Part shown: positions 43,651 to 63,196 of the stretch, in pieces
Layout: the number at the start of each line of letters is the position of its first letter
Numbering within the stretch: the stretch's first letter is position 1
Source of the DNA: Craspedostauros australis
Lineage: Eukaryota > Bacillariophyta > Bacillariophyceae > Mastogloiales > Achnanthaceae
DNA: 64,000 nucleotides
Assembly (NCBI GenBank): GCA_026770025.1
Contig: JAMXDE010000034.1
Coordinates: forward strand, 434,001 to 498,000
Reading direction: 5' to 3'
Program-made: the position numbers and the translations under genes
The notes under the pieces: model-generated
The model's input: the letters and a program-made list of their open reading frames with translations, nothing else
What the model was told of the DNA's origin: nothing
Databases searched by the model: none

Positions 43651-43685
43651 GAGCCCCCCGAGTGAGTCGATCAAGACCTTGAAAT
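43651..43685 (+). repeat. Left terminal inverted repeat of outer transposon
   Basis: Begins GAGCCCCCCGAGTGAGTCGA and matches the right end in 34 of 35 positions. Subterminal similarity resumes around 43712-43745 (CAAACTAAGCACATATTC against CAAAACTAAGTACATATTC on the other arm). Confidence 0.92.
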
Positions 43686-44145
43686 GAAAAGTCTAATCGG
43701 ATTTCTGGGATTTTCAAACTAAGCACATATTCGCAGTCCTTGTAGTCTCTTTATGTATAATGGAACCTTTCAGATTGTAGTTAGTTTCATTTTAAGTTTT
43801 ATGGATCAATCAATGTGTTTAGTCTAGTCGCGTGAATCCAACAGCACAAAATTTGTTAGTTTCTGCCGAAGGTTCGATGATGCTCTCAAGTATTTATCGT
43901 CTGGTGATCAGTCACGAACTTGCTTCCGAAGGTCTCAGTCGTTTGGTACACGTTAATTACACGTTAGCATGTGGTGCATGATTCCACATTCTGCTCGTCA
44001 CAAAACACGTGACACAAAACACATCACACAAAACACATCATCCCCATCATTTTGCAAAATCGCGCCACACTTTCGCTCCGTTTCACAACTTTCCTCGCCA
44101 ATGGCATGCACACTCGCTCTTTCGCTCAATGCCCGTTCTTGTCAG

Positions 44146-44212
44146 AGTAGTAGTAGTAGTAGCAGCAGCAGTAGTAGTAGTAGTAGTAGTAGTAGTAGTT
44201 GTTGTTGTTGCT
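44146..44212. repeat. AGT/GTT trinucleotide microsatellite
   Basis: Tandem AGT with a short AGC island and a GTT end, about 67 bp, directly upstream of the transposase reading frame in the left arm of the outer element. Confidence 0.95.
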
Positions 44213-44316
44213 GAATGATCGGCCTTCATCCCGTGCTCTCCTTACCTCACTTCCTCTCAGACCAGTTCATCACATCCAACAAGCAAACAGCACTACTCTC
44301 CAGCAACAACTCCACC

Positions 44317-47300
44317 ATGCCTACCTCTGCTGCTGACAAAGCCCTCCCCAAGGATGGCAACCCCTCTCCTCGTAAGAAGCTGTGTTCTGCTCACCCCATG
44401 CCTGCTCACCCATTCGACTCCAAGGGGGCCCTGCTGCCAGCCTCTGAGCAACTGTTGCCTGACAAGCCATTCGCTGTATTGGGGAGGCAGAGCACCATCA
44501 CGCGAGTGATCGATGTGAAACCGATGCATGCAGCGGATGGCAACCTCGTCCCGAACAGCACGCATGCGCACGCTCGCGAGCTGCATGTGTTCGTCCACAT
44601 CCTCAACAACAACGGAGGCGTCTTCGACGACTCCCATGTTGAGGTGCGTTCGGAGGGACGAGGTGTCGGCGATGGGACTTTGGTGAGCGTTATCGTGAAC
44701 GCGCCACCCTTGCCTACTGCAGCCGACGTTGCACCACCTGTCGAGCCTACCCTGCCAGGGAGGGTTCCCCGGCGTTGCAACACTGTTGTTGCCGGGGGGT
44801 ACGCAGATCCGTCTATTGACAGCGACAGTACGTACGTTGACGAGGACGAAAAACAGGCGCGCGCTGGCTGGGACAAGAGAGGAGGCGAGTTCGGGCATGA
44901 TCTGGGAGAGGAGGGGGGAAACTGGAGGCGCCATGCCATTGTTCGTGTGATGGCAGCGCTTAGATCTAACCTAGATCCAAAACTGTTGCAGCTCATGCCA
45001 AAAAAAGGATTCGTCCTCGCGGGCCGACACGATCGGACCATCTGGAGCTACATCAAACTGATGTGGAGTGTCACATCATCTGCACTTTGGACTGTCCTGC
45101 TTCCAGAAGAGAACGTGCCAACTCGTCAGATGGAACAGGTGATTGCATACGTGCGCGGGAACGTGGAGCTTCCTCCCACGATGTTGGCATCTAACCTCTA
45201 CACCCTCTGCTTGTTCGGAGAATCTTCTTCTTCCCGCACGGCAAGAGTTGCTTTGGCCATGTCTGCACCGTCTGCACTGTGTACTGCTATTCTGGGTAGG
45301 CACACACATGCACTGTCGGAGGAACAGAAGGCTCGCATGCTTGCCAAACGCGACATCATCACACCCAGCCAGACATACACCTTGCGTCGTTACTACGACA
45401 TGTTAAGCCATGGCGACAGCATTCCACAGCGAGTTCTCCAGTACCGTGTGTGTGCTTGCGACCTGTCTGGTGTGGTGTCCTTCCTCATGACAACTACTAC
45501 ATATAAGGCAGGGTTGAGTCACACGGTACAGTATGGTGGAGTTGTATTTGAAAATGTTCCGGTGTTCGATCGAGGAAGCACGACTATCGAACAACTATTC
45601 GACATGTACTCGTCTACGACCAACCGCCCAGTGGGAATGCCTGCTTTCACCACCATGACCAACCTACTAACACGCAAAAGCAAGATCAAGACGGGCCTCT
45701 CTTCCTTCGAGAGTTACTTCTGGATGGCGACGGAGAAACTCAAACAGGCAATTTCGCGCCTAGTAGACCTACTGAAGGCTAAGTATGAAACTGATGGGGA
45801 GGAACAAAACGATGCCAATGACAGGAGCCACAACGATACCGATGAGCCAGATGACGTCATCGCACATCATGTACGCAAAGCCGATTCCCTCTTGCATGCA
45901 CTCGAACTGCTTGTTGTGTTCCTCAAATGGGAATTCACCGCCTCCCACATGCAGCTTCAGTGCGACGACCCCATGCATTCGGCCGCGTTCGCTCTCACCA
46001 CCAAAAAGGAGAAGAAGAAGGCACCAACCACATCCTCCAATCAACGCAAACCACGCACCAACAAGCACAAGAGCAAGAAGAACACCGCGCGTAAAGTATG
46101 CAACCGTTGTGGATCAGCAATGCGATTTGTGAACGATCGTTTTGTCCCTTTTGTCAAAATGCTTAAGGACAACGAACTCGCAGAACACAAGGACGAATTG
46201 CAATCAATGCTTGCGGCGGCGCCGGGATTCGCCAACGAAATTGTTAACTACATGGCTCACAAAGTGCGTGCAAAAGTTCAATTCCGACAAATCGCCTTTT
46301 ATCAATCCGAACTCAATGATAAGCCTGAAAGAGCCTATGTGGTACTTGACCATAAGCAAAAAATTCTACCGACAGGCCAAAGCGAAGCCCAACAAGAATA
46401 TTGGGGGAAGAAGGGAATGTCACTGCTTGGGGCGATGGTCATCACGTGTCGCAATGACATTTTTACTTATCGGTTCATCAACATTGTGGTCGGTGGACGA
46501 CCGACACAAGACACACTTCAAGTTGGTGCACTGCTTGACATCGTGCAAAAAAAGGTCAAAGACATTCACCCATCCGTGACTGAGATCATCCTACAGAGCG
46601 ATAACGCGTGTTGCTTTGCCAGTCACGAGCACATCCCACTGATCACATCGGTACTCAACAAGAACCTTGTGACACGAAAAGCAGCCAAAATCATCGCCTG
46701 GATCTACACGGAGGCCCAAACTGGTAAGAGCATGCTGGACACCCACTTCGCGTACATCACCCGTGTACTGCGAAAATACGTGCAAAGTGGCAAGGACATC
46801 AAGACCCCGTTCCAACTCTTCCTTGCACTGAAAGCCGGTAACATCGCGGGTACCACCACGGTACTGGTCAACGCAAAGACCCTCCAAGGCAACATCACGT
46901 CGCTTCCTGGAGCACCAAAACGACGATTCCGCGCGAACGGGCAACAGGTACGTCAGACTCACGAGGTGAAGTATGATGATGACCAGGCGCGGTTGGTGGC
47001 TGCATCTGGCATCACGGAAGACGTCCTTGTGAAGAGCGCTGAATGGGACGGCTGGATCATCAACCAGCTGGGCGTTGCCGATGTTCACACACACAAGTCC
47101 GACAAGCTGCCGATCACGTCCGAATCGTTCAGGAAGACGGACAAGACGCGAAAACTCGGGCGCACAGCGGCAGAGAGCAAGGGGCTGGCGTTCGGCAAAG
47201 CCATCGCAGACGGACAACAACATCTACCATCCGATCACACCACAGCGCTACAAGACCAGACCGCCGAAACCGAACACCCTCCACTCGCAGTGCCAGGCTG

Positions 47301-47793
47301 GGCGAGCAAAACAACGCGCAAACCAGCGGAACTACCAGACTACATCGCGGACAAGTTGAAGGACATCAGTGAAGCGTCCGCGAAGGACCCAAAAAACAGA
47401 CCATCCGAACACGAAGCACACGAACAATTGATGGCCAACAAAAGAACCAAAACTGACTGGTACGTACAACTGCACGCAAATCCCATGCGCGTGAAAGCGT
47501 CGCTGTCTGCAGCGTACAATGCCAAACAACGCAAGGGCAAGAAGGAGGCTGCTCTCATCAAGGCGGAAGCCAACACCAACACCAACACCAACACCAACCC
47601 AACAAGCAAAGCAACAGCATCTGCAATCGTGGCGACCCACTATGCGCCAGCTGAAACACAGGAGGAACGAACAGAGAAAGAGTTGCAGAGAGAGGAGGAG
47701 GAGCTGGATCATCAGATGTGGTGTGATGCTGACACACTGAAGGCCAACACAGAAAGTGAGGCTGTGTTGGATGATGGGACGGAAATTTTGTGA
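44317..47793 (+). CDS. DDE-type transposase of the outer transposon
   Basis: Single exon of 1158 residues. The ATG at 44317 (CCACCATG) is preferred to the in-frame ATG at 44215, which sits at the end of a microsatellite. It is homologous to 54116-57760 over most of its length. A conserved N-terminal half includes Y-K-A-G-L-S-H-T-V, P-V-G-M-P-A-F and K-T-G-L-S-S-F. The catalytic half has YVVLDHKQKILPT, then GKKGMSLLGAM, then IILQSDNACCF, then IYTEAQTGKSMLDTHF. The spacing is D-83-D-36-E, as expected of an RNase H-fold DDE enzyme that cuts and joins DNA ends. A single C-x2-C (CNRCG) precedes the catalytic core. The C-terminus is basic, with an N-T repeat. No internal stop is present, so it may be functional. 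It resembles uncharacterised eukaryotic proteins with an SDNA-C-F/Y motif that I cannot name with certainty. Confidence 0.85.
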   Translation: MPTSAADKALPKDGNPSPRKKLCSAHPMPAHPFDSKGALLPASEQLLPDKPFAVLGRQSTITRVIDVKPMHAADGNLVPNSTHAHARELHVFVHILNNNGGVFDDSHVEVRSEGRGVGDGTLVSVIVNAPPLPTAADVAPPVEPTLPGRVPRRCNTVVAGGYADPSIDSDSTYVDEDEKQARAGWDKRGGEFGHDLGEEGGNWRRHAIVRVMAALRSNLDPKLLQLMPKKGFVLAGRHDRTIWSYIKLMWSVTSSALWTVLLPEENVPTRQMEQVIAYVRGNVELPPTMLASNLYTLCLFGESSSSRTARVALAMSAPSALCTAILGRHTHALSEEQKARMLAKRDIITPSQTYTLRRYYDMLSHGDSIPQRVLQYRVCACDLSGVVSFLMTTTTYKAGLSHTVQYGGVVFENVPVFDRGSTTIEQLFDMYSSTTNRPVGMPAFTTMTNLLTRKSKIKTGLSSFESYFWMATEKLKQAISRLVDLLKAKYETDGEEQNDANDRSHNDTDEPDDVIAHHVRKADSLLHALELLVVFLKWEFTASHMQLQCDDPMHSAAFALTTKKEKKKAPTTSSNQRKPRTNKHKSKKNTARKVCNRCGSAMRFVNDRFVPFVKMLKDNELAEHKDELQSMLAAAPGFANEIVNYMAHKVRAKVQFRQIAFYQSELNDKPERAYVVLDHKQKILPTGQSEAQQEYWGKKGMSLLGAMVITCRNDIFTYRFINIVVGGRPTQDTLQVGALLDIVQKKVKDIHPSVTEIILQSDNACCFASHEHIPLITSVLNKNLVTRKAAKIIAWIYTEAQTGKSMLDTHFAYITRVLRKYVQSGKDIKTPFQLFLALKAGNIAGTTTVLVNAKTLQGNITSLPGAPKRRFRANGQQVRQTHEVKYDDDQARLVAASGITEDVLVKSAEWDGWIINQLGVADVHTHKSDKLPITSESFRKTDKTRKLGRTAAESKGLAFGKAIADGQQHLPSDHTTALQDQTAETEHPPLAVPGWASKTTRKPAELPDYIADKLKDISEASAKDPKNRPSEHEAHEQLMANKRTKTDWYVQLHANPMRVKASLSAAYNAKQRKGKKEAALIKAEANTNTNTNTNPTSKATASAIVATHYAPAETQEERTEKELQREEEELDHQMWCDADTLKANTESEAVLDDGTEIL

Positions 47794-48448
47794 TGGATGT
47801 GCATCGCCACGATAACACGAGTTGTGGAGTTTTGTGGGTGGCAGACCATGCTACTACAACGAGTCTAGAGGCCATCCAAAAACACATCCAAATATCTGCT
47901 TGTCATGCTATATCTCAACAACACATCGTTTGAAATTAAATATAAACATTTCATTCAGACACCTGACTATAGGTTATACAGAATATCGAAGTTAAATTGA
48001 CATAGAAATTGTTTTTATTGTCATGTTTGACCACCACACAGTTGTGTGGTGAATTCGAAAAATTCTGGACGGCACAATGTTGCCCTCCCCTCAGCACCCA
48101 TGATCATCATCATCATCATTGTATTTCTTCAAACTGCGCACCACAATGGCTCTGTATGCTCCCCAGCTATCCACTCCATGAAGGACAGAACATTTCTGCC
48201 ACATTGCACACCCCAAAGTGTCGATACACTGAAAAAGAACGATTTCAAAAAACAAAGTGCAAGCCGGATGCGGTATGGATACGGATCCATATCTCATCCA
48301 CAGGACCCTTTCAGCCCCTCCACGTGACCCTCGTGCATTCCCACACTACCTGGCGACATGCTGATGCATCCAGACTGGGCTGGGTGTGGATGGTCCCGAT
48401 GGCACACCTCCATTTGGTGATGGCCCTGTTGGTTTTGGGTGCCCCACC
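47794..48448. other. Outer transposon body, 3' of transposase
   Basis: About 650 bp after the transposase stop. The first half would contain its 3' UTR. No gene is recognised. Confidence 0.5.
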
Positions 48449-48453
48449 AAAAA

Positions 48454-48659
48454 TATTAGAGCACTATCGAAAAATCACAAGGGGAGAGCAAAAGCAAAGT
48501 ACCATGCCGGGATTCGAACCCGGAACCTCAGTTAGAATTACTGGTGCTCTACCGTTGAGCTACAGGCGATGCGATTGCTGATCCGAACACAAGTGAAATT
48601 TATAGATAGTGGGGGCTACGGGAGTAACGTACTTAGCACTATTCAGTTTTGTGCTGATA
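48454..48659 (-). repeat. LTR-like repeat, copy A
   Basis: 206 bp, base-for-base identical to 48911-49116 by eye. Contains a tRNA-like sequence. Confidence 0.92.
48500..48569 (-). pseudogene. tRNA-like sequence in LTR copy A
   Basis: It folds by eye as a 70-nt tRNA. The D arm has a perfect GCTC/GAGC stem, the anticodon stem is 4 of 5 pairs, and the T arm is a perfect CCGGG-TTCGAAT-CCCGG. The A box (TAGCTCAACGGT) and B box (GGTTCGAATCC) of the Pol III promoter are both intact. The acceptor stem pairs at only 4 of 7 positions, and the base before the anticodon is A rather than U, so a working tRNA is unlikely. The anticodon position would read UUC. Confidence 0.7.
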
Positions 48660-48910
48660 CTCCCCTACGCTACGACCGTGGACCACCTGCTCAAGAGCAC
48701 TATGACGGAAAGTTGTCATCTCCCGCGTCTCCCCATCTCGGGGCACCCTCATTGCTGGGTGGCTAATACTGCCAGACGAAAGTGGGAGTGCTGCCGTAGC
48801 AGACAAGTGTGAGACTGGGCCGAAATCCGGTGATCGCAACGCGCCCACGAAGGCGTGTTGTGCAAGGTTGTCCTAACTCAGCGATGTAGAACTAGCTGCG
48901 ACTGTTAATC

Positions 48911-49116
48911 TATTAGAGCACTATCGAAAAATCACAAGGGGAGAGCAAAAGCAAAGTACCATGCCGGGATTCGAACCCGGAACCTCAGTTAGAATTACTG
49001 GTGCTCTACCGTTGAGCTACAGGCGATGCGATTGCTGATCCGAACACAAGTGAAATTTATAGATAGTGGGGGCTACGGGAGTAACGTACTTAGCACTATT
49101 CAGTTTTGTGCTGATA
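48911..49116 (-). repeat. LTR-like repeat, copy B
   Basis: 206 bp, identical to copy A at an offset of 457 bp. Confidence 0.92.
48957..49026 (-). pseudogene. tRNA-like sequence in LTR copy B
   Basis: Identical to the tRNA-like sequence at 48500-48569, with the same intact A and B boxes and the same broken acceptor stem. Confidence 0.7.
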
Positions 49117-49121
49117 AAAAA

Positions 49122-49935
49122 TGACAGGTATGCACTCATTCCATGCCGCAGCCTCTTCCAGACCGTTGCAGCAGCTCGAACTTCGCGACGTGCATCTTCA
49201 GGCGATGATGCACGGGTCTTGTATGGGTGACTTGGAGATTGGGCAGCTTGATGATGCTGCCCCCTCACTGCCAAAGTCACATGGCAGGTTCGCCACGATC
49301 CGCCCAACAAAACTCTTGCCCTCCACTGATTCCTCCGCGCGGACACCTTCCCGGTCCTTCCCGAGCCTCAAACTTCGTGGGGACCTTGATGGTTACCTCC
49401 TGGATGCGTCTTGCCCATTTGCAGGTGTTGGTGTGGCCTGTGCATGGAATACACAGGCTACATCCAACGAGCCAATCTGCCGCAATTTTGAGACGTTTGC
49501 GCGGAGGCCTGCGACGCCCCCAAACCAACCGCTCTCGCAGCCTCCGCTCGTCCACCCACCAAAGGTTGCATGGCGGTGACGTAGATGTGCTTGTATTTGT
49601 CATTGGGCCGCTGGTTGGTGCGGCGCTGACGATGCCGTTGGGTGTCCATTGTGATGTTTTTTTGGTGTTCCGCCATTGTCATCTTCTTGTGTCGAGTTTG
49701 GCGCTCTCGGCCAGTCGGGCATCCTGGGGGCTGAGGTAAATGTCAAACATTGCAACGAACGTACGAAAAATGCATGACACAAAACACTTCGGGAGTACCA
49801 ACGCAACTCGACCATTCCGTCACGACGAAACGCAGTTGATGATGATTCACATCGTGCTGTGATTGGTGGTTCATGACGCAGCAGCCAGTTTGGTGACGTA
49901 GATCACGGATCATGCAAACACTGGATAGAGTGGAT
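49122..49935. other. Outer transposon body before the inner insertion
   Basis: About 0.8 kb with overlapping frames on both strands, none recognised. The last bases before the inner element, GTAA (49936-49939), are the left copy of the inner element's target-site duplication. Confidence 0.45.
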
Positions 49936-49939
49936 GTAA

Positions 49940-49977
49940 GACCCGCCTGAGCGAAAATAGTACACCTTTCTCGGGAA
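49940..49977 (+). repeat. Left terminal inverted repeat of inner transposon
   Basis: 38 bp, perfect match to the reverse complement of 62778-62815. Its first 15 bases agree with the outer element's terminus at 11 positions. Confidence 0.95.
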
Positions 49978-50540
49978 CGTCGTTTCTGTGTTGAAAAAAA
50001 CTGCGTATATCTCTTCTCCTACATCAAATACATCATATGGCAAGAACTAGAATTGTTCCGTCCAATCATTTTAAAGTTATGGAGGGTTGAAAATCATGTC
50101 GAATCTACCTATTAGGTGAATAACGCACAGACGCTACAATGCTCATTGACGCTTCGATAGAGTCGCAGTGGTCATTCATCCCAAAACGTTCTTTTTTCTT
50201 CCATCGTTTGGGCTTTGTTCGCGATTCTTGAATTTCCGGAGAGTGACTCTACCTTGTGCTCGCACAGAATCGTTGGTGTGAACACAAAACTTTTGTTGCA
50301 TGGAGAGTGATGTGATGTATTGTGATGCAGTGCGATGTGCCATGGGCCGTCAACCAGGATGGTAGGCATGGTCCTTGTTCCTCTTCCTCCTGTCTGTTAT
50401 GTCAGCGTGGTAGCAAGGGGGATGGACAGGCTGCAATGCACGAGACGCATACGATGCAAGTTGTGCAGCGCTGAAATAGATGGTGCGAATTGCTGGTCCC
50501 AAGATGGAAATGGATTGCACCCTCGCCACAGTCCTGTACG

Positions 50541-50880
50541 CAGTGGCAACCCCAACCCACACATCTCTGACCCTAACCCTAACCCAGGTCTTGGCCCTCT
50601 GGACCCCTAGCCCTAACCCCAGCCCTAACCCTAACATTGAGTAACTTCATGGCTCTGTCTGAGTAATGTCAGCCACACGCAGTTGCCTCCCTCGTCTCTT
50701 CCAAGTTGCCGAAACTCCAACCGGAACCCCAACCCTAACTCTAGCCCTGAACAACTGCTTCCCTCCTCCCTAACCCAAACCCAAGCCAGAACCCCAGCCC
50801 TAACTCTAACCCTGAGCAACCTCATGACTCTGTCTGAACAACGTCATCTGCACACAGTTACCTCCTCCGTCGCTCTGGTG
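50541..50880. repeat. Degenerate telomere-type CCCTAA repeats in a duplicated unit
   Basis: The plus strand has many CCCTAA, CCCTAACCC and variants (CCCCAACCC, CCCTAACTC). Two related units of about 175 bp follow each other: GAGTAACTTCATGGCTCTGT at 50639 and GAGCAACCTCATGACTCTGT at 50814, each after a CCCTAA-rich stretch. TTAGGG/CCCTAA is the telomere repeat of many stramenopiles, so this is an interstitial, decaying array inside the inner transposon. Confidence 0.85.
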
Positions 50881-51577
50881 TTGCCCTTGTCGCGAACTCT
50901 TGCTTTTCTCCCACTTTTTTGCTTCCCGCACTGTTTCGATCCATTTCAACGGCCGCCGTTCCAGCGTTTTTGATTCGATTTCAATCATTTTCGCTGTTTC
51001 TTTCACCGAAGGTATCCCCAAAACGTTCTTTGAACTCTTTGGCGCCAATGAAAAGTAATCAATATTGTCGATTGTGACTGCGGTATCCGGACAGACGCCA
51101 TATCTGCTGAGTAAAACCAGGCGCCTTGGCATGAAGGCTTCGTTCAGAATCTCAACGCACGAGCCATCCAAAGAGACAGACTCAGAGAAACAAAGACAAG
51201 AAACAAGTCAACACAAGAGATGAAAGGGGCCACGTGTTGACTGGTGGGAAACATCGCGTCGCGTGGCTTCGCATCATCCGTTGCCATTTCCATTTCCATC
51301 GGCATCCCTTGGCAACTGCACGTACCATACTCGCTCGCCATCATCTTTTTTCAATCAAGAGCATCATGCACAAACACGTTCATCTTCTGAAGTGCTTCAT
51401 CCCGCGCCCAACTGCCATCTCTCATTGCTTCGATCAATTGACCGATCGCCGCTCGTGTTCAGTTGGTGGGTTGTACCGTTACGGTCACTCATTCCTGCTT
51501 GTGCGACCGTGACAATTCCAACGCATCACAACGCATCACACCACAACACACCACCACCCACCACAACGCAAAGAGAA

Positions 51578-53837
51578 ATGAACATGGCAGACGATCCCTC
51601 CATCTCATTGGAGGATGAGGATAACAAATCCTCCATGAGCTTCGACTCCAAGGCCAACGAGATGTGCCTCAACACGCTCGGCGGTCCCACCAAGCCCAAG
51701 ACCAGATCCTGCAAGCTTCTCAATGTCCCCAAGACAAGACCAGATCCTGCTGCAAAATGAGGGACATCCTCCTGGCCGCAGCGGATTCTGATCCTTCGTC
51801 TCTCACAAAGGCGGGATGTTCCAGGACGATCCGCGAGTGGGTGAGAGGCACGGATATGGCACCAGCGCCTGTGGTCTTCAAAGGTGAAAAATCCGACATC
51901 GCGGTCTCCGCCTACGTTGACGATCAGAGGGTGCGCGGCAGGGGCATTTACGAAATCCGCACGAGAGCCATCACCCACCAGACCACCGAATTCTGGATAT
52001 GGAAGGTCAAGTACGAGCACATGCTGCCGCCCAGACATCAAACCCGAATCGAGACCGGAGATCCGCCGGATTTCAAACCCTGGCTTGCGCCAAAAGATTC
52101 GGATACCGATTTCGTTGGCACGTTCTCAGGGTCGCATTGCGACCCGACTGGTCATCTGAGGGGGCCAAGACATTCATGGCCAGATCCATATCTACGTCAA
52201 CGCCACAAATTCGTCAATTGGATCAGCATCGGATATACCACACCCTCTTCGAACCTTCCAACAACCTCCCCCGCAAAAACCACACAATCACGAAGAACGA
52301 TCTCATCCTCCTTCACATTGATCATGCCAGATCGAAACTGGATTCTACCAATCAGAAGGGACCAACAGCTGTGTTTGCTGGAGTCGAGAGGGGCCCCAAT
52401 CGCCTGCGCCAGCGTCCGATCCGCGGATCCCAACAAGGCCATCGATTCTGGGCCACACTGCCAGCTACACAGGCCCACCATGCTGTGGCTCGGCGATGCG
52501 TCCGTGTTTGATGGCGAAGACATGGAGATCATGAAGCATGTTGATCCAGAGGTCCACCTTGGCAGCAAGCTGCAATTGCTACCAAGTCATTTCGATTCGA
52601 AAGGTTTGGACGTCATGCAACGCATCGCAGAAAGCAAGGACGGCACTGATGCTCTGCACATCATCATGTCGAAGAGGCGTCCCCACGAACAAGCGGACCC
52701 ACCTTGCTCTACGCCTATGATGCCTTTGAGGTCGTGTCGGTCCGCATTACAACCTGCAACAGGTCTGGCATGGTTGGAATGTGGCGGCGTCTGCGCGGAA
52801 ACCAACGTGCTTGGTGATGAAGAATTTGGTCCCAGCTGGCATCAGGTGAGTGCCAATTATTGTCGATGTTGTTGCTGCTGTGTATGCTTGTGTTGTTCAC
52901 TCGCGCATTTGCACCTGGCATGTGCGCGGCGCAGAGCAGACCAAAAAATCAGGAATGGAAAGCGTGCACAAAACAGGCGCATTGAAGGAGTATGACTTTC
53001 CAAGCTTGTGGGAGCACTTGTCATTGACTCTTTCATTCCATTCCATTTGTGTCCCCACTTCACTTCATGTCATACTCACAATTGAATCAATGTCCGATTG
53101 GTTGGCATGGCATGATATGATACGAACTGCGCCCATTCTGTGGTACTGCTCGCACACACTCTCATCCCGAATGATGGACTCCACTCCAACCATGTGTCTG
53201 AATTGCGGCAATATCGTCTTGCTGGAGGGCGCGGTGCACGAAAAGCGCACCAAACCACACGAAGACTTCATCGCAGTTGCTGAGGATTTGATTTGGTCGA
53301 AAAAATGAAAAGCCAAAACATTGGCCATCCGCGGCGGATCCGGCGGAGGATTGTTGGTGCGAATGATTTTGTGATGCTCCTGGACTGTTCAGCGCGGTGC
53401 GTTGGGCAGTCTCGATCCGTGTCGTCAAGCAGTCAAAGATCTGCATTCGGACGATGCAGCTATATGCGCGACGAATTTGGATCCGGACGCGTCCGATTGG
53501 AGGTGTTCATGGGGCAGACCTCGCTGTACCACAACATCAAATAGGATCCAAATTTTCTACCAATCCTATTCACTGCCGCACGAACGATGATCGGATACAC
53601 CCAGCGCCTGTGTGAAAGATGATGAAGAAGCTGTGGAGATTGGTTCAGGGAAAGCGATGGCTGACATGCTACGATGAGAATGCGGAGGGCAGGAACGGTC
53701 TGCCTGCAACGCCGAAGCAGGACGCCTTCATGACTGCGCTGGCGTACGATTTCATGTTCAAGAAGTTGTCGAAGGATGCCAAAAAGTCAGCTGACGAGTA
53801 TTGGACTGGATTTGGATTGATGCACGCAGTGTTCTAA
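51578..53837 (+). pseudogene. Decayed or intron-containing second gene of the inner transposon
   Basis: Protein-like segments succeed one another on the plus strand but in changing frames. 51578-51760 starts MNMADDPSISLEDEDNKSSM and ends in TGA. ~51757-52170 has IREWVRGTDMAPAPVVFKG and FWIWKVKYEHMLPP. ~52250-52420 (other frame) has NDLILLHIDHARSKLDS. ~52440-52680 has MLWLGDASVFDGEDMEIM. A GTGAGT at 52850 could be a splice donor. 53162-53308 has CLNCGNIVLLEGAVHEK. 53619-53837 (KRWLTCYDENAEGRNGLPAT) ends in a stop. At least three frame changes are needed and no single intron set was found that mends them all, so decay is favoured. No family was recognised. No counterpart was found in the outer element. 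Confidence 0.4.
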
Positions 53838-54115
53838 TCGTGTATCATACCATACATAGCAAGCACATGTGCGAATTGAGTAGATGCACGGCGATGGTGG
53901 TTCCATTGTGCATGTCAAGATCATAGCAACCGATAACATCAGAGCCACTCTATACATACCAACAACAGCTTCCTCTCGTAATCCCTGTGGACACGCAGTT
54001 ACTGCAGTTGATATCGCTATGCTGCAACTTGATAGTATCAATGTGACACAGAGTATAGTATCGTAGAATAGAATGCAATATACTAATGTTGGCATACTTG
54101 CGGCGGTCGTCAGGA

Positions 54116-57100
54116 TCAATCATCGGAAGGTAGCAGGTTGCCATCAATCACATCAGCGTCCTGCCCGTCGTATGGGCGATCATCCAGAACCTGCTCTTCG
54201 TGCGCTTCTTCGCTTTGAGTGTTCTCCTTGGATGCCATGATCCGCAGTTCATGCATCTCGTTCAGGCACTCTTCGCACTCCTCGTCATCCAAGTAGCCAT
54301 TGTTCTCGAGGTATCTCTCCGCTCGACCGTCAGGAGCTGCCAGGAAGCATTTCAGGTACGTGATGTCCACCTTGATCCTCTGCTCCCAATCAAGCAAGAA
54401 AGGCCCGGCCATCAGCTCTTCGTGAAGCACATGAGCGCTCCTCCTCGTGTCCGGGTTCCTGCAAGCAATCGCAGCATCGCACACAATCTGCGCCACTTGT
54501 TTCGACATGGACGGTACCTTGGTTGCCGGAGGTGCTGATGGATCCTTCTTTCGTGAGGTGGCTTTGTCTGGATGGCAGATCGCCCATCCCTGCCTGATGG
54601 ATTGAGGGAAGTCCACTGTGGCATTTCGTTCACAATTTGCCGTTTCTGCTGCTGCTGTTGCTGGTTCCAGAACACGCGAAGTGAGAACGCGTTTGAGCAC
54701 TTCCGTCTTGGTGGTGCTCTTGTTTGTTGTTGTTGCGTGTCGTCGCTCAGTCGGTTGTGAGCCGCGGATATTCTGTGGATCCATCACGAATGCTGGTGAG
54801 ACCTCGGTGATGTCCTCATCATTGCAAGTGACATCGAGATGGAGAATGTCGAACTTGTCGATCTTGCCCTGCGTGATAGTCTCTGGATGCGTCAAGCCCG
54901 ATGATGCTGTGACCTGGATTTTGTCATCAATCAGATCAATTTGATGGGTGGCGCGAACGGAAACTCGGTTGGTCGCGAATGCTTTTTCCTTTCCGTCCAC
55001 ACCACAGATGATGGCATGTCCCAATCTGCTCAGATCCAACAGAAGCGTCGTTGTCCCCTTGATGTTGGCAGCTTTCAGCACTGTGAAAATATCGCCTTGG
55101 GTGGCAATCTTTGCGTCCCTGGCACTGTCCACATACAACCTGAGTTGACGCGAGACAAAACCGAAGTGTCCGTCCAAAGCACTCTTACCAGCTTGTGCCT
55201 CAGTGTACAGCCATTGGATGATTTGGAGTCGTGGTTTGGGAGGGCGGGTTCCGGTGTCTTGCTGTGCTTTTGCCTTCGTGGATGATGCAGCCTTCGCGTC
55301 ATGATAAGATGACTGTTCTGTGTTGATTTTGGGGGGAGGTGGATACTTAGCCTTGTCCTTGTGCTTGCCTTTGTTCTTGCCCGTCACCTTCCGCTTCTTC
55401 TTCTTCTCTGGCATCGTGTATTCAACTTCAACCTCTCCCTGGTTTAGTCCATGCATGTACCTCATCAGTGCCGGACTCGCGAAACAACTGGCATTATCAC
55501 TTTGGAATACGACCTCTTTGACCCCCTTGTGAAGCTTCGGAAGCACGGTAGCATGAAGAATCTTGATCGCACCAGCAACTTGGACATGATCCTGCTTGTT
55601 CCGCCCCTTCATCACCATGTCAATGAATCGGTACTCGAACTTACCGTTCTTGTATTGGATTGTCATGACACCTAGGAGAGACATTCCATTTTTTCCGAAG
55701 AACGCTTTCTGAGCTTCCTGATTCTCCGTTGGGAGGATGCGTTGCTTGTGATCAAGCACGGCAATGATGCGATCTGGATGATCCTTGAGGCGCTCCTTTT
55801 CCTCCGTGATCTTCTGCGCTTGTACCTTTCGTCTCACTTGGTGGGCCATGTACTGGCGCAGCGCGTCATCACACAGGTTAATTGCTGCAGCCATGCGATC
55901 CAATTCAAATGTGTTGCCGGTGATGCTGTTGGTGGCAGTTTTCATGAAGTTGCGAACGCGAATCGGGAAGAACGTCATGACATCTGCACATTGCTTGCAT
56001 GCTTGGTTCACAAACGGGAGGGAGCCATTTGTCAGAGCGAACTCTGCGGAATGTAGATTATCCGCGGGTGACTTCACCTGGATGTGTTTGTTTGCGTATT
56101 CCCATTTTGCAAATGAAAGAACAGAATCACTGTCTGTGATGATGGCCTGTGCCTCATTGAGAAGTTCAGACACGAGCTCTTTGTCTTGATGTTCCTTGTT
56201 CTGAGTCCGAAGCAGTTCCATGACTCTCTTGATCATGCTTTGGAAGTGCATGAATACAGTCAGAGTGTCTGTGTAGAAGGAGGACAGGCCAGTTTGACAC
56301 TTGCCACGTCGCGTGAGCAATGTCAGGATACTCCTGAAGGCAGGCATACCAACTGGGTCATCTGTTGTGTTCTTGTACTTGGCAAAGAGCTGCTCTTCTG
56401 ATATTGATCCGCAAATGAAGATGGGCAGGTCTGGGAACAGAACACCAGCCAACTTGACGCTCCTTGTGATGCCTGGCCGGTACTGGAACATGGAAGTGAG
56501 AAACGAGACTACACCCTGGAGACTAGATTCCTTGACACGGTACTTGTAGTCTGCGTGTGGAAACTTGCCGCCAGAGAGGATCATGCCACCAACATGTGAC
56601 AGTCGCCTGTGTCCTGTACGAGACATGGATCGGCGTCCAAGCTTGATCTTTGCCTTGTCTCCTTTCGACAAGCTACTGTAGTGCGCGGCCAGGATTCGGG
56701 TGCAGCGCCTGGAGTCACAGGTCATTGCCAAAACCGCACGAGCAGTCAGCGATAGGTCTTGATTCCCCCAGAAGGCTAAATGACAGAGAGTCTGCTCCAG
56801 CAACACAGGAGGGAGCTGTTTGCGATGTCGCACGAAGGTCATGGCTTCTGAAAGCTGTTCGGGGGGTTCTCTGCCAGGAAACATGTGCTGGGTTGACCCA
56901 CCACAAACTCCATCCCAGACTCGGTTGATGAGACTCCAACGACCAGTCGCTGTCTTTCGTGGGAGACGTTCAAATCCATCCACATGGAACCGTGAGAGGG
57001 GTTTGATGCTAATGCCAGCTGCTTCAAAAATGGCTTGCAGCATTTCTCTTCGATTCACCTTGCCCTCGTTGGCTGGAACGAACGCAGCATCCGTGTCATC

Positions 57101-57760
57101 CTCACTGGTTGTACTCGCACAATCCGACTCGCACTCTTCCATAGACACAGCGACATCTCGTCGCGCGAGCACATCATCTCCTTCCTGTCGATGTGGCGCC
57201 CTGCATCTGGTTGCTGATGATTTGCGCTTGGGACGTGTGGGCGCAGCAGCATCACCACAAGTCCCAATGGAGAACGAATTGGCCTGTGGTACAAAGGCAT
57301 TCACACCTGTGTGACGTGCACCTCCGCTGATGGATGATGCACAGTTTGGGCAAAATGGTGGCCTACTGCAGTGACTGCAGAACAGGGTCAGACATTGCTT
57401 GCAAGGCATGATACCAAAGCAGTTGGGCCCCATGTAGTCAGATGTTGGAGTTGCCATGCTGTTGTTGGGGTGGAATGTAGAGTATGGTAGACCACCCACG
57501 CCTGTACCGATGTAGCTGGGGATGCAAAAGGAAGGAGGTTGTATGTTGGGAGGGACATGATGATTCGCAACCATGGGGAGAGGAGGACTGTGAACGCTGC
57601 CATTGTGGTTTGGTCCAACAGGTGCAGAGTATTGGTACGTTGCGTAGTGCCCATGAGGTGGTTGGGGATAGATGGATGTGCCAGCAGTTGCTGTTTGACG
57701 TTGCACCTTTGATTGGGATGGATTGGGGTCGCTGCTCGAATCCTCGCGTGGACGGGTCAT
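54116..57760 (-). CDS. DDE-type transposase of the inner transposon
   Basis: Single exon of 1214 residues. The ATG at 57758-57760 (MTRPREDSSSDPNPSQ) is preferred; the frame is open to 58039, but that part looks like leader. An N-terminal Cys cluster (CKQCLTLFCSHCSRPPFCPNC, near residues 120-145) may bind zinc and is not seen in the outer enzyme. Homology to 44317-47793 covers the N-terminal domain (P-V-G-M-P-A-F, Q-T-G-L-S-S-F), a C-x2-C, and the catalytic core: IIAVLDHKQRILPT, GKNGMSLLGVM, VVFQSDNASCF, WLYTEAQAGKSALDGHF. The first two acidic residues are 84 apart. Between the second D and the E an extra Lys-rich insert of about 62 residues makes the gap 98. The C-terminus is acidic. The frame is intact. 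The two enzymes are clearly related but far diverged. Confidence 0.85.
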   Translation of the reverse strand: MTRPREDSSSDPNPSQSKVQRQTATAGTSIYPQPPHGHYATYQYSAPVGPNHNGSVHSPPLPMVANHHVPPNIQPPSFCIPSYIGTGVGGLPYSTFHPNNSMATPTSDYMGPNCFGIMPCKQCLTLFCSHCSRPPFCPNCASSISGGARHTGVNAFVPQANSFSIGTCGDAAAPTRPKRKSSATRCRAPHRQEGDDVLARRDVAVSMEECESDCASTTSEDDTDAAFVPANEGKVNRREMLQAIFEAAGISIKPLSRFHVDGFERLPRKTATGRWSLINRVWDGVCGGSTQHMFPGREPPEQLSEAMTFVRHRKQLPPVLLEQTLCHLAFWGNQDLSLTARAVLAMTCDSRRCTRILAAHYSSLSKGDKAKIKLGRRSMSRTGHRRLSHVGGMILSGGKFPHADYKYRVKESSLQGVVSFLTSMFQYRPGITRSVKLAGVLFPDLPIFICGSISEEQLFAKYKNTTDDPVGMPAFRSILTLLTRRGKCQTGLSSFYTDTLTVFMHFQSMIKRVMELLRTQNKEHQDKELVSELLNEAQAIITDSDSVLSFAKWEYANKHIQVKSPADNLHSAEFALTNGSLPFVNQACKQCADVMTFFPIRVRNFMKTATNSITGNTFELDRMAAAINLCDDALRQYMAHQVRRKVQAQKITEEKERLKDHPDRIIAVLDHKQRILPTENQEAQKAFFGKNGMSLLGVMTIQYKNGKFEYRFIDMVMKGRNKQDHVQVAGAIKILHATVLPKLHKGVKEVVFQSDNASCFASPALMRYMHGLNQGEVEVEYTMPEKKKKRKVTGKNKGKHKDKAKYPPPPKINTEQSSYHDAKAASSTKAKAQQDTGTRPPKPRLQIIQWLYTEAQAGKSALDGHFGFVSRQLRLYVDSARDAKIATQGDIFTVLKAANIKGTTTLLLDLSRLGHAIICGVDGKEKAFATNRVSVRATHQIDLIDDKIQVTASSGLTHPETITQGKIDKFDILHLDVTCNDEDITEVSPAFVMDPQNIRGSQPTERRHATTTNKSTTKTEVLKRVLTSRVLEPATAAAETANCERNATVDFPQSIRQGWAICHPDKATSRKKDPSAPPATKVPSMSKQVAQIVCDAAIACRNPDTRRSAHVLHEELMAGPFLLDWEQRIKVDITYLKCFLAAPDGRAERYLENNGYLDDEECEECLNEMHELRIMASKENTQSEEAHEEQVLDDRPYDGQDADVIDGNLLPSDD

Positions 57761-59370
57761 GATGCGATAGCGATGGTGGCTGACGGACGATGTGGGTGGG
57801 GGGAAGGCACAGATGATTCTGAATGATCTCGATGTTGGGGAGCACTGAGTGTTGTGCTGACATTGCAGATACGAGAGCACAGCAGACAGCGACAACAATA
57901 CACAACAAACCAAAATGACACATGCATATTCGTTCACAACAGCATGAGGGATGTGTTTGTGTCGAGATCGGCAGCAACAGTTCAACGGTCGCTCATTGGT
58001 GCATACGTGGTTGCGATTGGAGAATGTATGTGGAACCATCTGCGATTTTTATTCTGGCGAAAGAGTGAGTGTGACGCGGCGCCAACACAACGAGAGACCA
58101 AGCGCAAGAGAGAGAGAGAGAGAGAGAGAGCGACGAGTGCTACATCAATCCGTCTATCCATTCATTCTCTATTGAATTTCATAATACTTTTTATTCTCAT
58201 CGATTGTCACCTCGATTTCTGATCATTTGCATTGGCATCGTGAGAGACGATCGAGTGTGTATCATGATTACGTCCCTGGTGGCCGAACGCAACACGGTGG
58301 AATACAATCGATCTGTTCTTCGTTGGTTGCCATTTGGAGTTGTGTTGGCTGTCGGCGCCGATCGTCTCAGATGCGACGATTGAAGTATCCGCAGTGAATG
58401 GGCAAGAGTACAGTTGTTGGGTGTGCGATGTGCGATGTGTGATGTGTGATGTGTGATGTGAGTTCGCTGGGGGCGGACATTCTGTTCTGCTTGTTGCTTT
58501 TGATTGGTGCGTCGGAGATTGGGTGGCTGGTCCATGAATCTGTCATTTGTGATCCCATCGTGTTGTTTTCTTGATTTTCGGACATACTTTGGTTCTTCGT
58601 TGTTCATTTGCTAAATGTCATTCATCCTCGTGAGCAACAAACGACATTTACACTGAACCATTGATGATTCCCATCCAATCAGATTTGACCGAGGTGCGCC
58701 AAATTCACAACAACAACTCCCACACCACACCCACATTTTCGACCAAGACAACAAAACTGGATCGGGCATCGACCAAGGCATGCAGTGTATTGTCGAGTAT
58801 GAGACAAGTGGAAGACGCCAAGTCGATCTTCGAACCATGATGGAACCGCAAAAGCGCAGCGCTCACAATGGTGCAGGAACGCGTCCGTGGTTCCACATAT
58901 TTCAGGAGCCGCTGCAATTTGTCCACTGCCGTCGCTGATCGTCAATTCTGTTGCTTGAGTCGTTGGCCTCGTGATGCCAAGCGGTAGGAAATCATGCCCC
59001 GCACCATCTCCAGCATCCGGGCCATCCGCAAACCTGCGTAACCATCTGTATCAATTCCATATGCATCTCCTTCCATTGGTGGAATTCGAAAAGGCCAACA
59101 CCACACGGATCCGCGAGCAATTGAAAGTCAACACACAGTCTGCTGGAGCCCGGAGCCCTCGCAAGAGGATTGCGAGCAACATCAATTCGGAGCGTGTAGA
59201 TCGCTCAGGCACAACTTCCCCTTTCCCATCAGCCGGACACCATGCATTATTGCGCAATACGAATGGTTGATGCAACTGTAATGGCATAGACTCACCTCAA
59301 TCGCGCCAATCGTGCATGACACTGACGATGCCCTCCAGAAGGTGCATGTCGACGGAGAGGAATTTGCATG
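57761..59370. other. Inner transposon, upstream of transposase
   Basis: About 1.6 kb containing the transposase leader, a GA microsatellite (58108-58130) and four ATGTGTG-type units near 58428-58460. A 100-codon plus-strand frame at 58971-59270 has some protein character (NLRNHLYQFHMHLLPLVEFE) and could belong to the decayed region that follows. Confidence 0.4.
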
Positions 59371-59710
59371 GGTATGGATTTGGTTGGGTAGAAATAGCAC
59401 CAGACGGAATTGCGAAACAAAAATTGGACGACTACAAAGTAAACAATGAGGTGGAGGAGATGAGAGTGGTTCGTCCCTCCAGACGTCGAAACCGATAGAA
59501 TGCGTGATGGAAACGTTCAGGCGAGGGTGCAAAAATGTTAGTGCGAAGAATATCACGGGGTCCCTACATAGGTATGCTTTTGTTGGCATAGGAATAGCAC
59601 CAGGCGGAATTGCGAAATAAAATTGAACGACTACAAAGTAGACGACAAGATGAAGAAGACGACGCCAGTCCGAGCATGTGGCTGTCGAAACCGATGGAGT
59701 CCGTGAACGC
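59371..59710 (+). repeat. Diverged direct repeat, two units 200 bp apart
   Basis: Unit 1 (59371 to ~59510) and unit 2 (59571 to ~59710) share blocks such as AATAGCACCAGRCGGAATTG, GACTACAAAGTA and GTCGAAACCGATRGA. Translated, unit 1 reads WVEIAPDGIAKQKLDDYKV and unit 2 IGIAPGGIAK followed by stops, suggesting duplicated coding sequence now decaying. Confidence 0.75.
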
Positions 59711-60160
59711 AGCGGAAAGGGGAAGATATTGCAACTTTATCGTGAGAAATAACACGAGAGAAAACGAGAATCCGGCAACACAACGCGCCGAACTAAAAAT
59801 GGCACAGGGTGAATCGCATGCATCGTATTGGTGGGTGGTTATGTCGGAAGCGTTGAAATCAAGGTATGGAGTTCATCCAACGGAGAGGATCGTGCAAAGG
59901 ATGAATGCAGTAATGTTTGCAATTGTGCTACGCACACAACAACATCGTATACCACTATTGAAAAATTCAGTAGATTGATTTGGGAGAAATTCGGGGAACC
60001 AGAAATTGGACACAAAGGACCCAAGACAAACAAAGAGTTGGCACGGCACAACTCCAGGTTGTGGCTCTCACACTCCTGCGCAAGCCAGAGTGGGTATGAT
60101 GGTGCTGTCGTACGCTGTCTAGTGTATGAACATACCTATCGTTCAATGATAAGAATCTAA
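59610..60160 (+). pseudogene. Protein-like fragments in two frames, inner transposon
   Basis: A frame at 59610-59978 (KMAQGESHASYWWVVMSEAL, RIVQRMNAVMFAIVLRTQQH) is followed in the +2 frame by TTIEKFSRLIWEKFGEPEIG to 60160. The junction near 59945 looks like a frameshift in one original sequence. No family was recognised. It may be a further piece of a transposon-encoded or captured gene. Confidence 0.35.
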
Positions 60161-62777
60161 TCAGTGGATTGCTAGAGTAGGCACAAGGTGGGCACCTGCA
60201 GCATAACCACAGAATGCTACGAGGAAACCATCGCCGCCGACACCAAGCAGCATGCCGAATGGAATAAGATTCTTGAATGATTGCTCCCAAATGCTCTGCT
60301 CCAAGTACAATGCAATCTCCATGATGCTGGTAACATTGTCTGGTACAACTGGACTGACTCCAAGAGCAAATGTGCTGACTTCTGCCCATGAGCTAATCGG
60401 TGACTTGCGCCATTCCCTTTCACAGTTGCGTGTAGCAATTTGTGGCTGCACGTACCGGCGTTTGCTCCGCGTATCTGCACCATGTCCTGCGATGGTACCA
60501 ATACGGCGACTATGGTTCGTCGCCAAGTGTGTCGATACGGTATCCTTGGGATGATCACAGCTCGCTCCATCCATCCATTCGTCGATCTACCCAATACGTA
60601 TGGTACTGGTATCAGTAGCATGGCATGTCGTGTCGTGTCGTGTCGTGTCGTATCGGAAAGTCACGAATGTATTCTGGAGTGTGCGCGATTTGTCGCTCGG
60701 CTTGTGAATCAGGATGCGCAGTTCTCTTGCAAATGGACACCAGTTCTCAGCGCAGAGCAGTGGCTCACATTTTGCTCTCACACGAACACAAGTCAATCGT
60801 GACGAGAGGACGAGCACGCGCCATCAATTCGAAAATGTTTGTGCTTGCGAGGAAATCGGAACAAGCTCTCAGCCTCATCCACACTACCTCATCCATTAGT
60901 ATGGTACTATTGTTTCATTGCTCAGAACATCCCATCCATCTGCTCCAACGCTTTCCGTACAGATGATCACCACCAGATTCTTGTCTATTACTCATCCAAC
61001 AACCGCTGGGGGAGACAACAAATCGCAACCGCCTGTGCAACAGCGTTCACCAATCATCAACCGCCAGTGCCATTCATGGTTGGCGCCGGCTGTTGCTTGC
61101 TCTGTGACTATCCAGACTGCCACGAACGGCCCCAGCAGACAACGGAGAATGACGACGATCAGCGAGAGCAAGTGATGTTACCAAATCCATGGGCGCAAAA
61201 AAAAAGGCACACGATGGTAGCGCTGTCGTCGCGTGGAGCAAAATTGTCATCGTATTGCCGCAGCACCAAGAAGAATCGCTGTCGTATGCGACGCTGCTAT
61301 CAAACCAATACAATAACCCTAAACCCAATCCACAAAATGGTGTCCAAACGGTCAGCACGTTGTTGTTCCTTGTCTTTGATCCACAACAACTCTGGAGACG
61401 ATAACGCACCATGGAACTGATCGTCATACCTATCTTATGAGGGTAACAATGCTGACAATCCTCGCACTCCAAGTCTGCCTGCGCCGCTGACCACCAAGCG
61501 CACCTTGTGGATGCAACACCATCGTTGACGGTTGGAATTGACGGTGGAATGTTGATTCTGCGGAAGTCAACCGATCCATCACAAGATCGAACCTCATCAG
61601 CCTCCGATGGGCGAATAATACAAATGTGGGCAGGTAGGATAAAAACAGATGCATTATATGATATGATATACTGCTGTACTCCCCTTCTTGTGTTCAGTGC
61701 GGTACATCATTCTGTTCTCGCAGAGCCACTCCGCAGTTTTGCGGCGCACCAGAACCGATTCTTCTGGGGAATGTGTGTCAACAGGCACAAAGCAGTCCAG
61801 AATTCGCGAGCGCAGTGTCTGAATTGGTTCTGTTCCACACAGGTTTCTAACAAAAAAACATATACTACGTCTGTATGTCCACCGAAATCAGAGGTAGAAC
61901 AGAGCGATTCTTTGGGTGCGACATGGAACAAAACCAGGAAAAGGAATGAAACATGATCCAGGAAAGAGCAAAATGAGCTCACAAACTTCCACAACAACAA
62001 CGAACATCAAATCCTCCAGGAGAGGCGCAACGAACGGAAACTCACCAACTCGAGAAGAGCACAGCAGCGTACATCAGGAATGTGCCGTAGTCGCCAGCTG
62101 ACTTTATTTCGCAGAACAAGAACCTTATCCACCTGCACCTATCTTGTCACAGAGTCTCGTGACCCTTGTATGAAATGAGAGACCACACGTGGAACGCGCG
62201 AGATCATGGTGCGACGAACCCGGCAGTGATCTCAGTTCCCGCGCTCACGAAGTACTAGCAGCATTGGCAAAAGCAAAAGTAACATCCCACTATACCTGGT
62301 GGAATATGCTGATAGCTCTGCACCTCCATCCCACCCTAATGTCGTATGGTACAGCGCAGTGCGCGTACGTACCATCGCATTCTGATGCAGTTTTGCTCTT
62401 CCACACCATTTGTTCCAAGTCCACCGCGAGAAACTGCGTCCAATCAATTGGGGCCAAAAACAGCCGAAATGTATGCCAGTTCGCACGACTGTAGACACGT
62501 CTGAGTTCAGCTTCGAGCGCCTTGCTGTGAGTCCGTCTGAGAGAGGAAAAAAGAACATTTTCGCCGCTCGCCGACGTCCAACTTGGAGACAATGACGAGT
62601 CGCATCCATGTCCGATCGAAAGCTAAAAACCTAAAGCACGGGCTACTGTGGGGAATTTCTCAACTCAAGCCCTCATAACTTATAAAATATAAAGTGTAGC
62701 AATTCTAGGAAAGTCAATCCGTCACTTTCTCATAGAGAGGAACATCATATTAAATTTATAGGGAAATCTGAGAGGAC
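60161..62777. other. Inner transposon right arm, no gene recognised
   Basis: About 2.6 kb. A GTCGTGTCGT tandem (five units of 5 bp) lies near 60627-60652. Short frames occur on both strands, none convincing. The last 170 bases are the diverged subterminal part of the inverted repeat. Confidence 0.45.
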
Positions 62778-62815
62778 TTCCCGAGAAAGGTGTACTATTT
62801 TCGCTCAGGCGGGTC
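62778..62815 (-). repeat. Right terminal inverted repeat of inner transposon
   Basis: Perfect 38-bp inverted copy of 49940-49977, followed by GTAA (62816-62819). Confidence 0.95.
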
Positions 62816-62819
62816 GTAA

Positions 62820-63157
62820 ACGCGCACTCACCGCTTCTCCCCAAACTCTACAACTAGCGCTATCGTGGAGGAGGTGTGGAATGGTCTCATCGGAACGCCT
62901 GAAAAAGAGACTAAACAATTCAAAATGGGAACAACCTTGCTGAAACAAAGAACAGCAACGCGTTAACTTGGATCGATGTAGTCGTAGCCAAAAGGCTGAA
63001 ACCCGAAAGAGATCGAAAAATGCGCACATCCATCGGTCCATAAAACTTAAAATACGGCCAACCTCAGATCTGGAATGGATTGGTATATGTTTTAGATCTA
63101 CGAGGATTGGGAATATGTACTTAGTTTTGAAATCGCAGGAAAAAAGTTGCGAGGTCT
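62820..63157. other. Right arm of the outer transposon
   Basis: 340 bp between the inner element and the right terminal repeat of the outer one. No gene. Contains the subterminal part of the outer inverted repeat (TACTTAGTTTTGAAAT near 63118-63133). Confidence 0.7.
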
Positions 63158-63192
63158 ATTTCAAAGTCTTGATCGACTCACTCGGGGGGCTC
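63158..63192 (-). repeat. Right terminal inverted repeat of outer transposon
   Basis: Inverted copy of 43651-43685 with one mismatch in 35, followed by TTAT (63193-63196). Confidence 0.92.
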
Positions 63193-63196
63193 TTAT

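Follow-up and report, generated by a model that had tools for sequence, protein, structure and literature searches.

A window of 64,000 nucleotides from the diatom Craspedostauros australis (contig JAMXDE010000034.1, positions 434,001 to 498,000, or G000:C32:434001-498000 in our numbering) holds two DNA transposons, one inserted within the other. We consider it very probable that both are complete, autonomous, single-gene terminal inverted repeat (TIR) transposons from a single diverse group, which has undergone expansion in this diatom, with a transposase whose core is most likely RNase H-like and of the DDE/D kind, and with cut-and-paste insertion at 4-bp NTAN targets. An initial annotation of this DNA had described two nested inverted-repeat pairs with TTAT and GTAA as their target site duplications (TSDs). 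We found both pairs in place, the outer matching at 34 of 35 positions and the inner at 38 of 38, a length and exactness beyond chance. The two elements consist of the following parts.

43647-43650, no strand: left TSD of the outer transposon, TTAT (flank reading)
43651-63192: outer transposon, transposase gene on the plus strand (TIRs, TSD, alignment of other copies)
43651-43685, plus strand: outer left TIR, 35 bp (sequence comparison of ends)
44215-47793, plus strand: outer transposase P0001, 1192 amino acids (aa), intact (open reading frame, third-codon-position excess against ten other copies)
63158-63192, minus strand: outer right TIR, one mismatch in 35 (sequence comparison of ends)
63193-63196, no strand: right TSD of the outer transposon, TTAT (flank reading)
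49936-49939, no strand: left TSD of the inner transposon, GTAA (flank reading, empty site)
49940-62815: inner transposon, 12,876 bp, transposase gene on the minus strand (TIRs, TSD, other copies)
49940-49977, plus strand: inner left TIR, 38 bp (sequence comparison of ends)
54116-58039, minus strand: inner transposase P0002, 1307 aa, intact (open reading frame, codon-position excess, lengths in copies)
62778-62815, minus strand: inner right TIR, 38/38 (sequence comparison of ends)
62816-62819, no strand: right TSD of the inner transposon, GTAA (flank reading, empty site)

Copies, order of insertion and target sites

We searched the host genome, one eukaryotic assembly of 74.8 Mb in 90 contigs (below, C-numbers are contigs and L-numbers are loci of element or transposase copies). 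Further copies with the same ends, which the initial annotation had proposed to look for, are numerous: the outer left end gave 40 matches (40 of 163 candidates scored), the outer right end 40 (40 of 154) and the inner left end 41 (40 of 53). Because these ends are common to many copies at different places, chance and assembly artefact are ruled out as the origin of either element. A correctly oriented right end lies within 50 kb for 32 of the 40 scored outer left ends, at a spacing of 5.98-6.86 kb in 22 pairs and of 9.3-44.3 kb in the other ten. The longer spacings point to nesting of the kind seen in the window, and the very longest could be pairs formed by chance. Once its two later insertions are taken away, the outer element measures about 6.0 kb; six further copies align with it lengthwise, and copy lengths are 6003 bp at L037, L038 and L041 and 6053 bp at L042 and L043. 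The matches to the inner left end comprise 28 long ones and 13 short ones that contain the terminal repeat alone, and inner-type copies at five other loci measure 12,887-14,312 bp. Copying has been recent: L037 and L041, both of the outer type, are separated by 2 differences in 6003 positions, and the C37 copy of the inner element has 99.7-99.8% identity with that of the window. We also observed that inner copies diverge patchily, with near-identical 400-bp blocks beside blocks that are several per cent different, which suggests exchange or gene conversion among copies.

The order of the two insertions can be read from empty sites. At L037, L038 and L041 the outer element is unbroken at the inner insertion point and carries a single GTAA, against two in the window. 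Since these unbroken copies carry one GTAA, the inner element was inserted into a pre-existing outer element and duplicated GTAA in doing so, which bears out the earlier proposal that it arrived later. The exact-match test for this empty site gave no match in the other seven outer copies, which are more diverged or incomplete, and three of those seven (L042, L043 and L056) align straight through the insertion point. That point lies downstream of the outer transposase gene, the frame of which is intact. Together, the exact empty site and the nested order give a clean demonstration of 4-bp insertion, whichever superfamily the elements belong to.

The 4-bp duplication extends to other copies, as the initial annotation had predicted. 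Counting the two in the window, 23 of the 26 copies with both ends readable have identical 4-bp flanks: 13 of 17 scored outer-type copies (two are mismatched and two have a degraded end) and 10 of 11 inner-type copies (one is mismatched). The outer-group duplications are TTAT (4), ATAG (3), ATAT (2) and CTAG, GTAT, ATAC and GTAA (1 each); those of the inner group are TTAA (4), TTAT (3), ATAA (2) and GTAA (1). Some were tallied on the contig strand, which leaves the central TA unaffected. This central TA, a feature beyond the initial annotation, is present in all 23 matching duplications, and TA makes up 2.3% (0.023) of the dinucleotides in window positions 1-43600. Because every matching duplication contains it, we take the target rule to be NTAN, biased to WTAW. 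Two of the three mismatches belong to inverted neighbours at C6:1182-1188 kb and C6:1190-1196 kb (C6:1182200-1196504), with flanks ATAG/ATAT and CTAT/ATAT. Their left flanks are reverse complements and both right flanks are ATAT, so that the pair looks like the outcome of an inversion by recombination between two inverted outer-type copies. The third mismatch, ATAA versus TTAT in the inner-type copy at C2:2630 kb, has no explanation.

The transposases

The two transposases share 35% identity over 529 aa, and both reading frames are intact, in agreement with the initial view of two complete nested transposons of one related group, each with a transposase of its own. A genome search with P0001, in which 39 of 572 candidates were scored, returned 46 matches; 32 of them cover nearly the full length in one piece, and 15 of the 32 lack an internal stop. 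The group is thus represented by 572 first-look candidates (39 scored) for one transposase, and some of its copies are nearly identical and have intact genes. P0002 is 1270 aa long in the copies on C4 and C37.

We compared substitutions by codon position (first/second/third) among copies. For P0001 the counts are 135/92/218 at L045, and the third position is also the highest in the other nine outer copies tested. For P0002 they are 26/16/62 on C26, 27/19/67 on C18 and 9/5/22 on C59; the C4 copy shows a slight third-position excess (9/5/11), and the C37 copy (1/1/0) has too few changes to judge. Since the transposase frames show this excess and none is clear in the other long open reading frames tested, each element seems to have a single gene, and from the codon-position counts each gene appears to be under purifying selection; the test covered single long open reading frames and leaves room for multi-exon genes. 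Candidates set aside in this way are an inner frame of 412-443 aa (51664-52995, plus strand; 19/31/35 on C26 and 49/39/59 on C18), an inner 140-aa frame and two of 170 aa, all without a clear third-position excess, and an outer 280-aa frame with no excess among 12-14 changes in three copies.

With a core of P0002 as the query, 127 of 459 candidates in the genome were scored and gave 187 matches; the lowest identity among the matches listed is 38%. We read six further transposases, with open frames of 1124-1482 codons between stops. Those of L086 and L088 share 90% identity, against 25-51% for every other pair among the eight; as only the L086/L088 pair counts as one family, the eight transposases represent seven families. 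The six further ones thus come from five further families, and D-x83/84-D and [Y/F]TEAQxGK motifs are common to them. At a third family, L085, three copies (on C14, C28 and C43; the C14 stretch is L117-L085-L119) score identically. No boundary was reached in the search for its ends: in two copies identity stays at 99.4 and 99.9% through 1.8 kb to either side. This near-identity of the flanks therefore points to a large, recently copied element or a duplicated segment.

An alignment of P0001, P0002 and the six further transposases shows the following residues invariant in all eight (P0001 numbering): D712, K714, L718, P719, S795-D796-N797-A798, C800-F801, T832-E833-A834-Q835, G837-K838 and H844-F845. 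The spacing from the first to the second aspartate (D1-D2) is 83-84 in 8/8, and the gap from the second to the third (D2-D3) varies with inserts from 44 to 196. The candidate catalytic codons are these.

46348-46350, plus strand: putative catalytic D712 of P0001 (LDHKQKILP), invariant in 8/8
46600-46602, plus strand: putative catalytic D796 of P0001 (QSDNA), invariant in 8/8
46738-46740, plus strand: putative third catalytic D842 of P0001 (GKSMLDTHF), D in 7/8
46711-46713, plus strand: E833 of P0001, an alternative third acid, invariant in 8/8
55751-55753, minus strand: putative catalytic D763 of P0002 (alignment)
55496-55498, minus strand: putative catalytic D848 of P0002 (alignment)
55172-55174, minus strand: putative catalytic D956 of P0002 (alignment)

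The D842 position is G in L090, D in its sibling L091 and N in the decayed, stop-containing copy L095. Among five short loci the third motif is visible in L091, L092 and L095 and absent from the fetched stretch of L093 and L094. Upstream of the core, H578, H588, C629 and C632 are invariant in all eight by alignment, with a spacing that varies by one residue; a regular expression with 8-9 residues between the histidines finds the set in 5/8. It resembles an HHCC zinc site, and zinc binding is putative.

In low-confidence AlphaFold models of both transposases the order of strands and helices is beta-beta-beta-alpha-beta; D712 lies towards the end of beta1, D796 directly after beta4 and D842 close to the start of a helix. 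Of the structure matches, none of them significant, many but not all are to proteins of the RNase H-like kind (RNase H1, Hermes, Argonaute PIWI, HIV integrase); RNase H-like entries are frequent among the fold matches, which is not proof of the fold. The offsets of the HIV integrase match (67..165 to 58..124) set D712 and D796 at integrase D64 and D116, which we take to be active-site residues of that enzyme. The initial annotation had spoken of large DDE-type proteins: large and intact the transposases are, and from the conserved motifs and these models we regard DDE-type as likely.

We propose that the transposase has an RNase H-like DDE/D core, in P0001 built on D712, D796 and, in all likelihood, D842, and that it would bind the GA[G/C]CC... 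terminal repeats, each transposase presumably acting on the ends of its own element. The element would be excised as DNA, in a cut-and-paste rather than a copy-out process, and strand transfer would take place at sites 4 bp apart that straddle the central TA (NTAN, mostly WTAW), with gap repair then producing the 4-bp duplication.

A third insertion and the host genome

Also beyond the initial annotation, the outer element contains a third insertion, a terminal-repeat retrotransposon in miniature (TRIM).

48454-49116, no strand: TRIM, 663 bp, in the outer element, with a 5-bp TSD AAAAA at 48449-48453 and 49117-49121

It has two direct repeats of about 206 bp, each with an Rfam tRNA match (48505-48564 and 48962-49021, both on the minus strand), and ARAGORN called no tRNA in it. 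At L037 the outer element is unbroken at this site as well. The genome search gave 40 scored matches of 115 candidates, 18 of them full-length (the window included) and 17 single repeats, and a 5-bp duplication flanks each of the 10 other copies that were read (4 full, 6 solo). By these sequence features the element matches the Helenus type of TRIM, described from fungi, animals and plants in the relevant part of Kojima 2024 (PMC10886601). It resembles Helenus in its terminal repeats with tRNA-like sequence and its 5-bp TSD; it differs from the printed type in its diatom host and in its ends, here TATTAG..TGATA, in a comparison of terminal repeats, tRNA-like sequence, TSD and ends.

By its gene content the host is a diatom, as judged from silicon transporter and chlorophyll-binding genes. 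The silicon transporter family PF03842 has 88 match pieces in the genome, 32 of them above 760 bits and 28 of the 32 without an internal stop, apparently a large expansion; two partial copies (C2: 2623888 and 2645177) have an inner-type transposon no more than about 6 kb away. The chlorophyll-binding family PF00504 has 61 matches, and for one such gene five PDB entries match at E<=1e-30, with a fucoxanthin chlorophyll a/c protein in fifth place. Elsewhere in the window (21195-36610), three long ankyrin-repeat open reading frames (775, 676 and 642 aa) flank, on both sides, one of 1563 aa that is AMP-binding and DIP2-like.

Relation to named superfamilies

We regard it as evenly balanced whether the group is to be placed with the already named Sola superfamily, as its diatom branch or as its sister, in which case only the lineage would be new. 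The duplications of 4 bp, the TIRs of 35 and 38 bp and the sizes of 6.0 and 12.9 kb all fall within what is printed for Sola, and the probable triad would be of the DDD kind if D842, present in 7/8 and in the sibling of the eighth, is the third acid; E833 is invariant as well, and the structure models are of low confidence. Some cnidarian and fish proteins have similar SDNAGCY...GK..CD motifs. The likeness to Sola is one of printed features, and Bao et al. 2009 are said to describe three Sola groups that differ in termini and target preference. The printed ranges are those in the portion of PMC10741241 on Sola: a DDD transposase, 4-bp TSDs, TIRs of 11-1124 bp and lengths mostly of 2-9 kb, with some above 15 kb.

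The initial annotation had called the superfamily unnamed. What stands of this claim is that the libraries searched gave no significant match: Pfam for all eight transposases (best E 0.024, below the cut-off), NCBIfam and PHROGs for two (best E 0.11 and 0.13) and PDB sequences by profile (best E 0.47, a HORMA protein). Novelty is not established, as the anatomy matches Sola. No relative was confirmed in four scans of viral contigs (19 to 207 pattern matches each) or two of prokaryote genomes (87 and 51), and tblastn with a 321-aa core found none in plasmids and phages. This absence says little, because the scanned collections are not eukaryotic; the host was the sole eukaryote, and the libraries used include no transposon protein library. 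Printed features of several named superfamilies are also missing here, and we noticed no description of the group in the open-licence PMC literature, which was sampled in part. We hold only tentatively that this is an unnamed superfamily of DDE/D transposons. Should it be one, it might be described, with the same reserve, as a cut-and-paste superfamily marked by 4-bp NTAN targets, a TEAQxGKxxxDxHF third motif and, upstream of the core, an HHCC-like zinc site; it would have diversified into at least seven families in one diatom genome and be one of the DNA transposon groups recently active there.

It is unlikely that the group is a divergent line of some other named superfamily (Kolobok, Academ, KDZ or Ginger, for example). 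In favour of this reading is the HHCC-like set upstream of the core in all eight transposases, which is of the same general type as that of retroviral-type integrases. For Academ, KDZ, Ginger and Novosib the sequence comparison covered Pfam and NCBIfam. A Ginger-type (Gypsy integrase-like) protein would be expected to match Pfam, and no significant Pfam match appeared for any of the eight; Ginger proteins are printed as highly similar to Gypsy integrase (PMC10741241, in the part concerned). Kolobok, according to the pertinent part of PMC9587614, has 5'-RR..YY-3' ends and 4-bp TSDs and is known from a diatom. Our group shares the TSD length, termini of the RR..YY type (GA..TC in both elements) and occurrence in a diatom, but lacks TTAA specificity, with TTAA in only 4 of 23 duplications and other NTAN sequences in the rest. 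Taking D842 as the last acid, we found the C/DxxH feature of Kolobok, hAT, MuDR, P and Dada between the second D and this acid absent from 6/8; the other two, of one family, have DKKH in a long insert only. CxxC is absent between D2 and D3 in 8/8 and the termini are GA..TC, as opposed to the CxxC and mostly CA..TG termini of CMCT (EnSpm, Transib, Plavaka, Lanisha). Neither the TTAA TSD and CC..GG termini of piggyBac, nor the usually 6-bp TSD and TA..TA termini of IS3EU, nor the 3-bp TSD of Zator fits the 4-bp NTAN duplications and GA..TC ends.

By layout, Sola appears to be the nearest known kind. We describe the group as one that probably works in the manner of a Sola-type DDE/D transposon and assign it to no superfamily. 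DNA transposons of diatoms are little described in the literature searched. If the group belongs to Sola, it is a young, richly sampled Sola lineage in phytoplankton, useful for fixing the catalytic residues and the target rule; if not, it is a new superfamily. With Sola it shares 4-bp TSDs, TIRs and large elements, and would share a DDD triad with D842 as the third acid; Sola is itself known from a brown alga, giant Sola-1 elements being reported from Ectocarpus in the relevant part of PMC12477816. It differs from the Sola2 elements of Dictyostelium fasciculatum, for which the part of PMC3627910 that treats them gives AT-rich 4-bp TSDs and the target AWWT: the target here is NTAN, and AWWT fits only 2 of the 23 duplications (both ATAT).

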